Shown here piece after piece: positions 6,320-11,492 of a DNA stretch of 64,000 bases (position 1 is the first letter of the stretch; each line of letters begins with the position of its first letter). Location of the stretch: assembly GCF_001941625.1 (NCBI RefSeq), contig NZ_CP016076.1, forward strand, positions 806,001-870,000, given 5' to 3'. The position numbers were made by a program, and so were the translations under genes. Below the pieces are notes generated by a model that was given only the letters and a program-made list of their open reading frames with translations, made no database searches and was not told the DNA's origin. Source of the stretch: Actinoalloteichus fjordicus (GTDB lineage Bacteria > Actinomycetota > Actinomycetes > Mycobacteriales > Pseudonocardiaceae).

Positions 6320-7645
6320 ATGGCTGGTAAGAAGGCTTCACCCACCAAGATCGTGATCTTGGGCGGCGGATATGTCGGAATGTACACAGCGTTGCGCCTC
6401 CAGGCCAAATTGAAGGCGGCGGAGGCGTCGGTGACGGTGATCGACCCGCAGCCGCACATGACCTATCAACCCTTCCTCCCCGAGGCCGCCGCCGGGTCGA
6501 TCGAGCCGAGGCACGTGGTGGTGCCGCTGCGCCGCACGCTGAAGCGGTGTCACGTGGTCACCGGCCGGGTCGCCAAGGTCGAGCACGACAAGCACACCGT
6601 CACGGTGGACATGGCCGAGGGGCACGTCGAGAAGCTGGAGTACGACGTCCTCGTGGTGGCCCTCGGGTCGGTGGCGCGCACGCTGCCGATTCCGGGACTC
6701 GCCGATCAGGGCAACTCGTTCAAGACCGTGGGGGAGGCCATCTTCCTGCGCAATCACGTCCTCTCCCGGATGGACGACGCGTCGTCGATGGCGGACGGCG
6801 AGCGCAGGCGTCGGCTGCTGACCTTCATGGTCGTCGGCGGCGGCTACGCGGGCATCGAGGCGCTGGCCGAGCTGGAGGACATGGCTCGGTACGCGACGCG
6901 CTACTACAAGACCATCAAGCCGTCCGATCTACAGTGGATCCTCGTCGAGGCCACGAACCGGGTCATGCCCGAGGTCAGCCCGCGGATGGGCGTCTACACG
7001 GTGGAACGGCTGGAGGAGCGGGGGATCAAGGTCTTCCTCGACACCAGGGTCGACGACATGACCGGCGGCGACGTCCGGCTCAGCGACGGGACCACCTTCG
7101 CCACCGACACGATCGTCTGGACGGCAGGCGTGAAGGCCAATCCGGTCCTCGCCGAGACCGATCTGCCGCGTGACGAGCGCGGCCGGGTCCGCTGCACCGC
7201 AGACCTGCGGGTGGAGGGGCTGACCGGGGTGTGGGCGGCGGGCGACTGTGCTGCGGTGCCCGATCTGTCCAAGACCGAGCAGGACCCCAACGCGACGTGC
7301 AGCCCGTCGGCGCAGCACGCCGTGCGGCAGGCCAAGCAGCTTGCGGACAACCTCGTCGCCTCGCTGCGGGGCCGACAGCCCGCACCGTATCGACACAAGT
7401 ACGCGGGATCGGTGGCCAGCCTCGGCCTGTACAAGGGCGTCGCGGACGTCTACGGGATCAAGTTGAAGGGTTTCCCCGCCTGGTTCATGCACCGCACCTA
7501 CCATGTCAGTCGGATGCCCACCTTCAACCGCAAGGCGCGCATCGTGATCGACTGGACCCTGGCGCTGCTCTTCCGGCGCGAGGTCATCTCCATGGGGCAG
7601 CTCCAGGAGCCCAAGGCAGAGTTTGCTCGTGCGGCGTCGAAGTGA
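6320..7645 (+). CDS. ndh: Type-II NADH dehydrogenase (NDH-2), FAD-dependent
   Basis: 441-aa FAD/NAD(P) oxidoreductase of the NDH-2 group, transferring electrons from NADH to menaquinone at the membrane face without pumping protons. The FAD-binding motif ILGGGYVGMYTALRL starts at residue 13. The second Rossmann motif VVGGGYAGIE lies near residue 172. The C-terminal FAD motif GVWAAGDCAAVPDL and the NDH-2 stretch CSPSAQHAVRQAKQLADNL are present. The C-terminus carries an amphipathic, Arg-rich membrane-binding segment. No clear Shine-Dalgarno sequence precedes the ATG (context gcatcgttgacATG), so the message may be leaderless. It stands alone between the MoxR operon and the ATP-grasp locus. Confidence 0.9.
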   Translation: MAGKKASPTKIVILGGGYVGMYTALRLQAKLKAAEASVTVIDPQPHMTYQPFLPEAAAGSIEPRHVVVPLRRTLKRCHVVTGRVAKVEHDKHTVTVDMAEGHVEKLEYDVLVVALGSVARTLPIPGLADQGNSFKTVGEAIFLRNHVLSRMDDASSMADGERRRRLLTFMVVGGGYAGIEALAELEDMARYATRYYKTIKPSDLQWILVEATNRVMPEVSPRMGVYTVERLEERGIKVFLDTRVDDMTGGDVRLSDGTTFATDTIVWTAGVKANPVLAETDLPRDERGRVRCTADLRVEGLTGVWAAGDCAAVPDLSKTEQDPNATCSPSAQHAVRQAKQLADNLVASLRGRQPAPYRHKYAGSVASLGLYKGVADVYGIKLKGFPAWFMHRTYHVSRMPTFNRKARIVIDWTLALLFRREVISMGQLQEPKAEFARAASK

Positions 7646-7755
7646 CCGCCCGCGTTCATCACCCTGATGGCCCAGCTCTGCACGAATGGAGGACGATCTC
7701 CCGTTGTGTGCGGCAGTGCTGACACTTTCCGTGAGTATTACTGCATTCGGCTCGT

Positions 7756-7773
7756 CCTATTGGGCCGAATAGG
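7756..7773. promoter_or_regulatory. Inverted repeat upstream of the peptide/ATP-grasp promoter
   Basis: The 18-base sequence CCTATTGGGCCGAATAGG is an almost perfect palindrome, with CCTATT and AATAGG arms around GGGCCG. It lies 22 bases before a TTGACA hexamer and 103 bases before the small ORF. An operator for an unknown regulator is the simplest reading; a short hairpin at the end of the NDH-2 transcript is possible but there is no T-tract. Confidence 0.4.
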
Positions 7774-7794
7774 CGAAGGTGTCCTAGTGCTCGC

Positions 7795-7825
7795 TTGACA
7801 CTGAGTAAGGTGCAGCTGAAACTAT
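7795..7825 (+). promoter_or_regulatory. Candidate promoter of the peptide/ATP-grasp operon
   Basis: TTGACA at 7795-7800 is a consensus -35 element. The best -10 candidate is the AT-rich AACTAT at 7820-7825, with a long 19-base spacer and poor match to TANNNT. The region is AT-rich compared with its surroundings. Confidence 0.35.
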
Positions 7826-7875
7826 CTCTGCCGGTCCGTCGCCGGCTCTCGCTGTCGAGGATGGGGGTGACCGTC

Positions 7876-7995
7876 ATGACGCTCAAGGAACTGGCTGAAC
7901 TCATCCGTCGGGGCGAGGTGACGGACGGACCGTTGGCGGAGTACCAGGAGGCCTTCGACAGGGAGCGGAAGATCTTCCGTAAGAAGGACGACTGA
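7876..7995 (+). CDS. 39-aa charged peptide, candidate precursor for the ATP-grasp ligase
   Basis: A very short gene whose stop codon is followed, after one base, by the GTG of the ATP-grasp gene. The peptide begins MTLKELAELIRRGEVTDG, a helix-forming, leader-like stretch. It ends in a run dense in Asp/Glu and Lys/Arg (LAEYQEAFDRERKIFRKKDD). MvdD-like ATP-grasp ligases join Asp/Glu side chains of a precursor to Ser/Thr or Lys side chains; here the acidic donors and Lys acceptors are in the C-terminal half, while Thr is absent there. Start alternatives in frame are ATG 7861 and GTG 7867; 7876 is chosen for the GGGGGTGA sequence a few bases upstream. A precursor role is inference from position and composition. 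Confidence 0.55.
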   Translation: MTLKELAELIRRGEVTDGPLAEYQEAFDRERKIFRKKDD

Positions 7996-7996
7996 C

Positions 7997-9145
7997 GTGG
8001 CGGACGCCGAGTGGGAGCAGGCAGCGCTGCCGCTCCCGCCCGACGCCACCGCCGACGCCGTCTCGATCAAGCCCGTCTCGACCCCGCTGGCCACGCCGCT
8101 GCTGTTACAGGGCCAGGAGTATCACTACCGCGCTCCCAGCGCCTGCCTCGACTTCCAGGAACGGATGTATCGGGCGGGTCTGGTCGAGCCGGGGGACGGC
8201 AGCCCGGTGCCCTGCGTGCTCGTCCTCGCCAGGGCGGCCGACATGGAGATGAACGAGCTGTCGCTCACCCTCGCCGAGCACGACATCCGGATGGTTCGGA
8301 TCGACGCCGATCGGTGTCTCGACCTTGCGCTGACCGTCTATCCGGACACCCCGCTGATCGAGCTGGATCAGTGGCTGCTGCGCCCGCTGCTGGTGTGGCG
8401 CCGCCACTTCGATCTCACCGCGCTGCCCATCGACCCCCGGTCGCTCTACGGCTCCTACACCCTGGACCAGTGGGGCGCCGTCGCCGACTGGCTCACCGTG
8501 CGGTCGGACTGGGGCCACGTCAACGAGCCCCGCCGCAGCGCGCGACTCGATCGGCTGACCCAGCTCGCCGACGCTCAGGCCGAGGGGCTCGCCGTACCGA
8601 GGACCGTCGTCACCACCCGCCCGGCGCGCAATCGACCCGGTGGCGCCCGGTGCATCGTCAAGACCGCGGGACGACACCTGCTCGAACCCCGGCCCGGCTC
8701 GCTGCAGGGCCTCTTCCCCCGTCCGCTGGACACCAGCCGGGCAGGCGAGTTGAGCGAGCCCGCCCCGGTGATCGTGCAGCAGTACCTGGTGGCCGATGCC
8801 GAGCTGCGCGTGTTCGTCGTCGGAGACGAGCTGATCCCCTACCGGGTGGACAAGATCGATCCGGCCCAGCTCTGGCAGGATCCGGACGCCGTCGCGGTCA
8901 CGGCCGTCGAGCTGGACCCCGTCGTCGCGCGGCGCCTGCGTGCGCTGGCCGCCCGCTGGAAGCTGGACGTCGCGGCCTTCGACCTCTTACAGGTCGACGG
9001 CGAGCATGTCTTCCTCGAGGTCAACGTGAGCTGCGACTGGCGCTGGTTCGAGAACCGCGCTGGTGAGACCAGGGTCTCGGACGCCGTCAACAGGTGGATC
9101 ATCACTCGTTTCGACGATCTGCGACGCGCCGAGCGCGTCCGGTGA
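7997..9145 (+). CDS. MvdD-like ATP-grasp ligase (graspetide-type peptide maturase candidate)
   Basis: 382 aa. The N-terminal part has the MvdC/MvdD-type Rossmann pre-grasp fold (VPCVLVLARAADMEMNELS, then RPLLVWRRHFDLTALP). The middle stretch SDWGHVNEP matches the family position where WxNxP is usual. The ATP-grasp domain shows ARCIVKTAG, VIVQQYLVADAELRVFVVG and the metal-binding end FLEVNVSCDWRWFE. Enzymes of this kind form ester or amide crosslinks in ribosomally made peptides. The gene is one base downstream of a 39-aa ORF, which is the only candidate substrate nearby; no transporter or protease gene is adjacent. Two in-frame TTA codons, at 8105-8107 and 8987-8989 (codons 37 and 331), suggest dependence on the UUA-reading tRNA. 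Confidence 0.75.
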   Translation: MADAEWEQAALPLPPDATADAVSIKPVSTPLATPLLLQGQEYHYRAPSACLDFQERMYRAGLVEPGDGSPVPCVLVLARAADMEMNELSLTLAEHDIRMVRIDADRCLDLALTVYPDTPLIELDQWLLRPLLVWRRHFDLTALPIDPRSLYGSYTLDQWGAVADWLTVRSDWGHVNEPRRSARLDRLTQLADAQAEGLAVPRTVVTTRPARNRPGGARCIVKTAGRHLLEPRPGSLQGLFPRPLDTSRAGELSEPAPVIVQQYLVADAELRVFVVGDELIPYRVDKIDPAQLWQDPDAVAVTAVELDPVVARRLRALAARWKLDVAAFDLLQVDGEHVFLEVNVSCDWRWFENRAGETRVSDAVNRWIITRFDDLRRAERVR

Positions 9146-9510
9146 CCGGAGCGCAAGAGAGTACGCGACGAGCGTAATCCCGGAAACGTTTTCACAGAAG
9201 TTCCACATAACCATGTTCGACAGCTTCGAGTGGTACTACGCTTTCGCCCGATCAGTGTCGTCATGGTCGCCCCATGGCCGCGCGATGCGGGTCGAGTCTC
9301 GTCGGGCCGGAGGAGGTGGTGCCTGAGCTGTGCGGGCAACGTCGAACGCGTAGCGCTGTCGGTATTCGGTGACCCACCGGCCGGGTGTCGTCTCTCGCCC
9401 CCGGTCGTCACACGCGGGCCGTGCCCGCAGTGGTGGTCGCCGCGTTCAGCGCACCGACGCTCTCGACGAGCAGCCAGGCACTCAGCGAAGGCGACTCCAT
9501 GCTCCGCGCT
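9146..9510. other. Gene-free stretch between ATP-grasp gene and tRNA
   Basis: No open frame here has convincing coding character. A short AT-rich segment at 9180-9215 (cggaaacgttttcacag and following) is the only compositional feature and may hold the tRNA promoter or a terminator remnant. Nothing else recognised. Confidence 0.5.
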
Positions 9511-9587
9511 GCCCCCGTAGCCCAATAGGCAGAGGCAGGCCCCTTAAAAGGGTCCCAGTGTCGGTTCGAGTCCGACCGGGGGCACCA
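9511..9587 (+). tRNA. tRNA with anticodon UAA (Leu-type) but short variable loop
   Basis: Acceptor stem GCCCCCG/CGGGGGC (9511-9517 with 9577-9583), discriminator A9584 and an encoded CCA. The D-arm has a GCC/GGC stem and a G18G19-containing loop. The anticodon stem GGCCC/GGGTC encloses the loop CTTAAAA, giving anticodon TAA at 9545-9547, which reads UUA. The T-arm is GTCGG/CCGAC with loop TTCGAGT. The variable region is only CCAGT (9555-9559). Bacterial tRNA-Leu normally has a long variable arm, so by anticodon this is tRNA-Leu but by architecture it is class I. The D-loop, one base longer than in most class I tRNAs, and A73 are Leu-like. A tRNA is near certain; its charging identity is not. 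Confidence 0.88.
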
Positions 9588-9824
9588 GCATCCTTGGTGG
9601 TGCGCCACGCGACGACGTGGTTGGTGCCGATGAAGCAGCAGCTGCGCACCGCGTGAGGGGGTCGGCCTCCACGCGGCGCAACTCATTCTTCGGCATCCAG
9701 GCTCTCGCCATTGATCCCTGTACCAGCCTGTTTCACCCTAACGAGTGTGATCGTCCCCGCCGCTCGGCGTGTATGACGCGAAGTCGGCCCTGCGGGCCGT
9801 CGCACGGGGTAGTCAGCGTTATTC

Positions 9825-11492
9825 ATGCCGCTGACCACACCTGCCGCATCCGACGGCGTCGCGTCGCCACGGGCGTCCTCCTCTGCCGCGCGTGCGCGGT
9901 TCTGGCCGATCTCGGTGATCGCACTGTCGGCCGTCGTGCTGATCTTCAACGTCGTTCGACTGATCGGCGACTCCGCACTGGTCGACGCAGGCGTGTACTT
10001 CGGCGGCGCCCGCCTGCTGCTGGAGGGCGGCGATCTCTACGGCACCCGGATCGCGGTCGCAGGCATTCAGCTGCCCTTCACCTACCCGCCCTTCGCCGCG
10101 ATCCTCTTCGTCGGCGTCTTCGCCGCGTCGCTGACTCCCGGTGTGTACCTGCTCACCGCGCTCGGCCTCGGTGGTCTGTTCCTCGCCTTGTTCCTGGTCG
10201 CCCGGCGGTTCGACGAAGGTCTGCTCGGCCCGCTCGCCTCGGCCTCGGCGTTCACCGCCGTGGCGACCTTCCTCGAACCCGTCGCCGACACGCTGGACTT
10301 CGTGCAGATCAACACGATCCTGCTCGGCATGGTGGCGCTGGACTGCCTCGGCCGCACCCGGCTGCTGCCGCGCGGCGTGCTGGTCGGGCTGGCGACGGCG
10401 ATCAAGCTGACCCCGGCCGTCTTCGTGTTGTTCTTCCTCGCCAGGCGAGACTGGCGCTCGGTCGGCTGGACGGCGGCAGGCTTTCTCGGCGCGACCGGCG
10501 TCGGCTGGCTGATCGCACCCGCGGAGTCCGCCGACTACTGGTTCACCGTCCTGGCGGACTCGGGGCGGATCGGCGACCCGGCGTATGTGGGCAATCAGTC
10601 GCTCCGAGGGCTGCTGAGCAGGCTGGTGAGTGACGAGACCCTCGTGCAGGCGCTGTGGGCCGTCACCACGGCCCTCGTGGTGGTGGCGGGCTGGCTGCTG
10701 GCGGCGAGGCTGCGCAGCCTCGGACAGGACGTCCTGGCGCTGTGTGCGGTCGCCGCGGTCGGGCTGCTCGCCTCGCCGGTCTCCTGGTCCCATCACTGGG
10801 TCTGGGCGATGCCCGTCCTGCTCGTGCTGTGGTGCAGGCCCGCCGGGATGCCACGGGAGGTGACGACGCGGCAGCCGTCGATTCCGTCTGCGCGCTCGGC
10901 CCCGCCCGACTCCCCGTCGTCGACCGCTCCGGCGGCGCGGGCGATGCGGGTCGCCGTGCCCCGACCGTCGCCCTGGTCCGCTCCGGTGCTGCTTCGGCGC
11001 GGGGTCTGTCTACTCGTGATCGCCTACCTGATCCTCGGCGTGCACTGGTGGCTGCCCCACCAGCGCGACGAGCACCTGACCTGGTCCGGCTGGCAGCAGC
11101 TCGTCGGCGGCGACTACGTGATCGCTGCGCTGATCGGACTGGTCGTCCTCGCCGTCCTCGCGCGGCGCTGGGGCAGGCCCGCCGCAGACGTCGGGCCGGA
11201 CGGGTCTGCGGTCGGCTCGGCGGCTGTTCTCCCCGGCGCTGGTCAGGCGAACCTCGGCCAGGCGGTTCCCGATCAGGCGGTTCCGGCTCAGGCGGTTCCC
11301 GATCAGGCAGGTCGGGAAGCTCGACGGTCCAGCACAGAGCCGAGCGTTTCGGAGCCTGCGTCGAAGGACCTGACCACCGCCGTGCGGCGGGGGCCTGCGA
11401 CGACCTCGGGCCCGCCGACCCTGCCCGCCCCGCGCAGCGCAACGCCCGGCCTGCCGCAGGAGTCCCGGCGCGCGCCCACGCCGGAGGCCTGA
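9825..11492 (+). CDS. GT87-type polyprenol-phosphate-dependent glycosyltransferase
   Basis: 555-aa integral membrane protein with about ten to eleven hydrophobic segments. The first periplasmic loop contains DAGVYFGGARLLLEGGDLYG, typical of GT87/DUF2029 mannosyltransferases, with the catalytic Asp expected there. Further family-like stretches are FTYPPFAAIL, QINTILLGMVALD and SPVSWSHHWVWAMP. These enzymes transfer mannose or related sugars from polyprenyl phosphate to envelope glycolipids. A proline-rich linker and a C-terminal cytoplasmic tail of 100 residues follow, including five QAVPD-like pentapeptides encoded by a 15-base tandem repeat. No ribosome-binding site is evident before ATG 9825. 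Confidence 0.85.
   Translation: MPLTTPAASDGVASPRASSSAARARFWPISVIALSAVVLIFNVVRLIGDSALVDAGVYFGGARLLLEGGDLYGTRIAVAGIQLPFTYPPFAAILFVGVFAASLTPGVYLLTALGLGGLFLALFLVARRFDEGLLGPLASASAFTAVATFLEPVADTLDFVQINTILLGMVALDCLGRTRLLPRGVLVGLATAIKLTPAVFVLFFLARRDWRSVGWTAAGFLGATGVGWLIAPAESADYWFTVLADSGRIGDPAYVGNQSLRGLLSRLVSDETLVQALWAVTTALVVVAGWLLAARLRSLGQDVLALCAVAAVGLLASPVSWSHHWVWAMPVLLVLWCRPAGMPREVTTRQPSIPSARSAPPDSPSSTAPAARAMRVAVPRPSPWSAPVLLRRGVCLLVIAYLILGVHWWLPHQRDEHLTWSGWQQLVGGDYVIAALIGLVVLAVLARRWGRPAADVGPDGSAVGSAAVLPGAGQANLGQAVPDQAVPAQAVPDQAGREARRSSTEPSVSEPASKDLTTAVRRGPATTSGPPTLPAPRSATPGLPQESRRAPTPEA
11244..11313 (+). repeat. 15-bp tandem repeat encoding a pentapeptide repeat
   Basis: Units of the form CAGGCGGTTCCCGAT occur at 11259-11273, 11274-11288 (variant ending GGCT) and 11289-11303. 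A degenerate unit precedes them at 11244 and a partial unit follows at 11304. In frame they give QANLG-QAVPD-QAVPA-QAVPD-QAGRE in the disordered tail of the GT87 protein. Unit number is likely to vary between strains. Confidence 0.8.

Follow-up and report, generated by a model that had tools for sequence, protein, structure and literature searches.

The window analysed here is a 64,000-nucleotide stretch of the Actinoalloteichus fjordicus chromosome (NZ_CP016076.1, positions 806,001 to 870,000). It holds a pair of adjacent genes encoding a 39-residue precursor-like peptide and an ATP-grasp ligase (Table 1). An earlier note, made from the sequence alone, had reported a 120-base open reading frame (ORF) one base ahead of an ATP-grasp gene, and the coordinates confirm this: the peptide stop codon falls one base before the GTG of the ligase. 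The peptide ends in KKDD (K36, K37, D38 and D39; codons 7981–7992), directly at the stop codon. Since such a peptide lies beside the ligase in many members of the family, with its last four residues unchanging, the pair probably makes a modified peptide.

Table 1. Features of the locus, in window coordinates.
Feature	Position	Strand	Remarks
39-residue precursor-like peptide	7876..7995	+	120-base ORF, sequence MTLKELAELIRRGEVTDGPLAEYQEAFDRERKIFRKKDD
382-residue ATP-grasp peptide ligase	7997..9145	+	GTG start
ndh, type II NADH dehydrogenase	6320..7645	+	fixed upstream neighbour, context
tRNA-Leu(UAA)	9511..9587	+	fixed downstream neighbour, context
Conserved promoter-like block	7794..7826	+	TTGACA 7795–7800, AACTAT 7820–7825
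18-bp imperfect palindrome CCTATTGGGCCGAATAGG	7756..7773	.	downstream of ndh; conservation judged by eye

The check proposed earlier was whether a short ORF with conserved C-terminal Asp, Glu or Lys positions always precedes the ligase. An ORF of 39–40 residues ending in KKDD does so at 78 of 78 orthologous loci, with the peptide start codons chosen by us at a conserved position. The loci comprise 53 from a scan with one genome per species and 25 from a set of 100 genomes made up of relatives and the window's own; because some genomes occur in both sets, the 78 cannot be counted as independent cases. They contain 37 distinct peptides and 53 distinct peptide DNA sequences. In the 100-genome set the ligase has a match at E ≤ 1e-3 in 46 genomes and a full-length close orthologue in only 25 (64–93% identity outside the window); one further genome, G013, carries a ligase piece at a contig edge. 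The genera represented by the 53 loci are Allokutzneria, Actinoalloteichus, Crossiella, Solihabitans, Streptoalloteichus, Saccharothrix, Lentzea, Umezawaea, Saccharopolyspora and Longimycelium, along with an unplaced member of the Pseudonocardiaceae and one record titled Nocardia. The latter, Nocardia sp. NRRL S-836 (L083), clusters with Lentzea in the ndh tree and is possibly misnamed. A profile of the peptide matched 55 of 150 genomes of the family, with one copy in each; among 296 genomes of the class, its only hits beyond the window's genome were three weak, partial ones within larger open frames, which we take as chance. A 15-residue peptide-like match in locus L173 was discarded, as the longer frame that holds it looks unrelated.

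None of the 37 distinct peptides departs from KKDD; together with the pairing at 78 of 78 loci and the substitution ratio given below, this puts the association beyond chance. Outside this tail, L6, A7, R11, G13 and A21 are invariant, positions 5 and 17 are always Asp or Glu, and position 2 is always Ser or Thr. No conserved Ser/Thr core appears in the alignment, in agreement with the earlier statement that the usual Thr/Ser core is missing. The window peptide contains no Cys, matches nothing in Pfam at E ≤ 1 and gives a single NCBIfam match, far below its cut-off. Could the small ORF act purely as a leader ORF for translational coupling, its product having no function? In 76 of the 78 loci its stop lies at most six bases from, or overlaps by four bases, the first possible ligase start, as expected for coupling. 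Against this stand the amino-acid conservation, with a median pairwise ratio of non-synonymous to synonymous substitution rates (dN/dS) of 0.22 over 548 filtered pairs (equal length, dS 0.2–1.5), and the synonymous variation at the codons of K(−4), K(−3) and D(−1), although there is none at D(−2). We regard a coupling-only role as very improbable.

The best family match of the ligase is TIGR04187 (GRASP_SAV_5884; E 2e-22, 79.8 bits against a curated cut-off of 350), followed by TIGR04185 (MvdC, E 3.5e-14) and TIGR04184 (MvdD, E 1e-9), all under their curated cut-offs. The description of the enzyme as MvdD-like is therefore only roughly right: the FLEVN...DWRWFE end is present, but TIGR04187 and MvdC are nearer than MvdD. 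Among solved structures the ligase matches PsnB (7drm, E 1.1e-8) and AMdnB (E 1.3e-5), and its predicted fold is of the MdnB/MdnC/PsnB graspetide-synthetase type, with conserved ATP-grasp residues. In one relative (G023, locus L013) the ligase frame is lengthened at its N-terminus by a long stretch containing AQGPI repeats, to 650 residues in total.

ATP-grasp enzymes also work at the C-termini of small proteins: RimK acts on ribosomal protein S6, and LysX and ArgX on LysW, a zinc-finger carrier protein. The ligase might likewise activate a carboxylate in the terminal Asp-Asp of the peptide and join to it an outside amine or amino acid, a unit that could then be modified by enzymes encoded elsewhere or by the SagB-type dehydrogenase encoded after the ligase at some loci (see below). 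Ligation at scaffold peptides is described for the peptide aminoacyl-tRNA ligases (PEARLs; PMC11117183). The invariant free C-terminus keeps this explanation alive. However, it leaves the two invariant Lys residues without a stated role, and graspetide synthetases rank above RimK in the fold comparison of the ligase model. Moreover, when ORFs of at least 60 residues were compared in 13 loci (12 of the 53 plus the window), only ndh and the ligase were common to all, with no amine-supplying or tailoring gene among them. On balance, we consider ligation of an outside unit rather unlikely.

The ligase and peptide of a Crossiella relative were modelled as one chain, joined by read-through of the stop. 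Residues 3–12 and 19–32 of the peptide are predicted as two confident helices, and KKDD falls in a predicted disordered tail, a shape that fits a helical leader-like body followed by a flexible core. Two helices would also suit a peptide that assists or activates the ligase without being modified by it, the real substrate being the product of some other locus. Partner-dependent graspetide synthetases do exist (Carter et al. 2026, PMC13097080), and no small peptide was seen next to the ligases of a second, related clade at the loci examined. The disorder predicted for the invariant tail, however, means that conservation is not limited to the helices, and the tail consists of residues that commonly act as donors and acceptors in this class of enzymes. 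A pure partner role thus strikes us as improbable.

We favour the explanation that the two genes constitute a small system of the ribosomally synthesised and post-translationally modified peptide (RiPP) type, with a very compact product of the graspetide kind; this has about an even chance of being correct. The ligase would bind the helical N-terminal part of the 39-residue peptide as a leader and, with ATP, phosphorylate an Asp carboxylate in the flexible KKDD tail; the amine of a neighbouring Lys would then attack, so that Lys and Asp become joined by one isopeptide link or two. Some relatives might go on to oxidise the product with a SagB-type flavin dehydrogenase, which is absent at the window locus. 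The separate parts of this proposal differ in strength: the peptide is very probably the substrate of the ligase and KKDD is likely to be the modified part, while an internal Lys-Asp amide as the bond formed is a suggestion that could go either way.

Several points weigh against this explanation. By eye, neither the Phhx(1,2)h leader motif in the peptide alignments nor a GG site in the peptide was found, although only about half of the precursors surveyed by Makarova et al. (2022, PMC8939145) have one or the other. If Lys and Asp of KKDD were joined (i to i+2 or i+3), the ring would be tighter than that of the corallotide KxxxD. SagB-type enzymes are described for thiazole and oxazole formation (PMC8939145), for which the family offers no conserved Cys, Ser or Thr, and the same source places branch 6 of the ATP-grasps, discussed below, 'possibly outside of graspetide class'. 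The folds of RimK and LysX/ArgX score not far behind those of graspetide synthetases. No docking of peptide to ligase was visible in the Crossiella model, read without coordinates and without a peptide-alone control. No protease adjoins the pair, and the carboxypeptidase-like gene upstream also occurs in genomes that lack the pair. Finally, the similarity of a Streptomyces-like peptide to the KKDD family is not significant.

The pair occupies a fixed chromosomal position. In the one-per-species scan, ndh lies upstream of it in 53 of 53 loci and tRNA-Leu(UAA) downstream in 51; of the two exceptions, the contig of L079 ends inside the ligase, and L051 diverges from its Lentzea relatives just before the place of the tRNA, its contig ending 93 bases later. 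We also queried 28 genomes as non-carriers, G013 with its ligase piece included. A close ndh was found in 25 of them, with tRNA-Leu(UAA) within 1.5 kb downstream of the best ndh locus in 23 of the 25 (one on the opposite strand) and no convincing match to the ligase at these loci. This bldA-type tRNA gene lies near ndh in most family genomes examined, with or without the pair between them. The window ligase has two TTA codons (37 and 331; 8105–8107 and 8987–8989) near the tRNA that reads them, but any TTA occurs in only 18 of the 78 orthologous ligases, so this is not a conserved link and we rejected a bldA-type connection.

Inheritance of the pair is mostly vertical. On a quickly built ndh tree with 79 rows, 4 changes suffice to explain which rows carry the pair, against 21.6 in shuffles; the distances of the ligase follow those of ndh, with r 0.97 for 52 of the 53 loci and 0.83 for a set of 12 representatives, and mean divergence is 0.24 for the ligase and 0.20 for ndh. 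We read the history as one insertion between ndh and the tRNA gene followed by losses, on a tree that is blind to gain versus loss. We regard ndh itself as context that probably lies outside the pathway. The core is invariant and the ligase has diverged at about the pace of ndh, from which we infer that the product probably has a role in the physiology of the producer and not in warfare. Patchy occurrence and diversifying cores are common among RiPP clusters; here, by contrast, the core, the enzyme beside it and the place in the chromosome stay the same in many genera, pointing to a conserved physiological role. A more specific and speculative idea, one we think has a limited chance of being right, is that of a housekeeping RiPP, vertically inherited through much of the family, in which KKDD is locked as one fixed Lys-Asp cross-linked tail, serving as an intracellular cofactor, signal or carrier that is not secreted, with an optional flavin oxidation that several lineages lack.

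The gene for the SagB-type dehydrogenase follows the ligase in 14 of the 53 loci of the species scan (L051 and L079 cannot show it, as their contigs end) and in 8 of the 25 loci of the 100-genome set. The minimal two-gene locus described earlier is thus true of the window, with a third gene added in part of the family. The SagB-type proteins are 356–382 residues long and start inside the end of the ligase; three that were typed score above the cut-off of TIGR03605 (SagB) and below that of TIGR04511. Its distribution over the 32 family rows of a ligase tree takes 4 changes to explain. The window contains no match to it, and no remnants were found downstream of the ligase at E ≤ 0.1 in the window and the 39 loci without the gene (two of them contig-cut). 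The window genome has one distant SagB-type copy elsewhere (E ≤ 1e-20, 36% identity; L187 6587–7879).

In the 13-locus comparison, a 499-residue serine-carboxypeptidase-like protein (Pfam S10, E 3.4e-11) is encoded at all 12 loci other than the window, and an ABC-transporter ATPase matching oligopeptide transporters at 9. Within about 10 kb upstream, the former is present in at least 50 and the latter in at least 27 of the 53 loci. The upstream regions of genomes without the pair contain them in 4 of 4 and 2 of 4 cases, respectively; therefore neither looks tied to the pair, we rejected both as pathway genes, and we take them as old neighbours. The carboxypeptidase-like gene lies upstream of a uracil-DNA-glycosylase-like gene and ndh (L189 11823–13280). 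In the window genome it is located just beyond the window edge, and the 14 kb upstream of the window yielded no oligopeptide-transporter ATPase. That the locus has no transporter or protease accordingly holds for the immediate neighbours and not for the wider surroundings.

Of the promoter with an 18-bp palindrome proposed in the earlier note, the promoter part fared better: of the 32 upstream regions compared, most contain an alignable block like CTTGACATTGCGTAAGGTGAAACCGAGACTAC. The palindrome is imperfect and, by eye, is kept only in L003, with a paired change, and in L002, with a mismatch in one arm; it is not recognisable in the remaining rows of the alignment. A possible hairpin in the 5' untranslated region (7829–7846), after the promoter-like block and ahead of the ribosome-binding site, recurs in relatives; it is present in some single folds but not uniformly, and we set it aside. 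An Rfam search over 7400–9900 returned the tRNA plus one match far below its gathering score.

Outside the family, a ligase profile at E ≤ 1e-15 matched 15 of the 296 genomes of the class, the window's included. The best outside match is G327; it has a sister, G510, among 150 genomes of the genus, and no others were found among 199. In both, a 25-residue peptide ending in NKSETE or NKSESE precedes the ligase and a PGM1-type ATP-grasp lies nearby; DpgA, an aminotransferase, an enoyl-CoA hydratase and a subtilase were typed only in the surroundings of G510. We rejected this Streptomyces-like peptide as a homologue of the KKDD family, as 342 and 550 out of 2000 shuffled sequences reach its score. 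Ligases of the second clade (L181–L184, L120/L146 and others) come directly after a GAF-type protein, and for some of them a subtilase-like frame is close by as well (both names assigned by eye).

Compared with known systems, the pair shares with graspetides such as microviridin, plesiocin and corallotide the predicted ligase fold, the conserved ATP-grasp residues and an adjacent precursor with conserved donor and acceptor residues in its C-terminal part; corallotide has a Lys-Asp link, of the kind proposed here, made by a TIGR04187 ligase. The pair differs in having an invariant four-residue KKDD in place of a diversifying core, and it lacks a Ser/Thr core, the Phhx(1,2)h motif and any adjacent export or protease gene. 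Graspetide groups 27, 28 and 35 are reported to comprise synthetase and precursor only (PMC13097080). With RimK, LysX–LysW and PEARLs the pair has in common an ATP-grasp or ATP-grasp-derived enzyme that acts, or here would act, on the C-terminal end of a small protein or peptide; however, the ligase model is nearer to graspetide synthetases, no further pathway gene adjoins the pair, and the peptide, with neither Cys nor a Pfam match, is not of the LysW type. Unlike in SagB azoline-type RiPPs, the C-terminal half of the peptide has no conserved Cys, Ser or Thr. The closest non-family ligases resemble pheganomycin-type (PGM1) clusters in their DpgA, aminotransferase, PGM1-like ATP-grasp and short peptide, none of which was seen beside the window pair.

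Literature searches, with most subscription journals outside their reach, found nothing on KKDD with ATP-grasps or on ATP-grasp RiPPs of Pseudonocardiaceae, and no mention of graspetides in the papers listed under genus names. The nearest description is that of branch 6 ATP-grasps in PMC8939145, where precursor clusters 367 and 1115 have neither GG nor Phhx(1,2)h and mostly lie beside a SagB-like dehydrogenase gene; other branch 6 loci combine a type III polyketide synthase, an aminotransferase and PGM1, as do the surroundings of the two sister ligases, and a Streptomyces viridosporus locus with PGM1 is described as well. The likeness to clusters 367 and 1115 is by description only: SagB accompanies most loci there and a minority here, and KKDD, the ndh/tRNA-Leu(UAA) site and vertical inheritance do not feature in the accessible description. 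Still, it fits well enough that we think the KKDD family is already listed among these clusters, and the earlier suggestion of a new precursor class was too strong. The architecture is known as a prediction; the accessible parts of PMC8939145 and PMC13097080 say nothing of the product, of the invariant core or of the vertical history. The pair offers a clean two-gene test system, and it bears on what branch 6 ATP-grasps (PMC8939145) do: form internal cross-links or add outside units to a carrier peptide.
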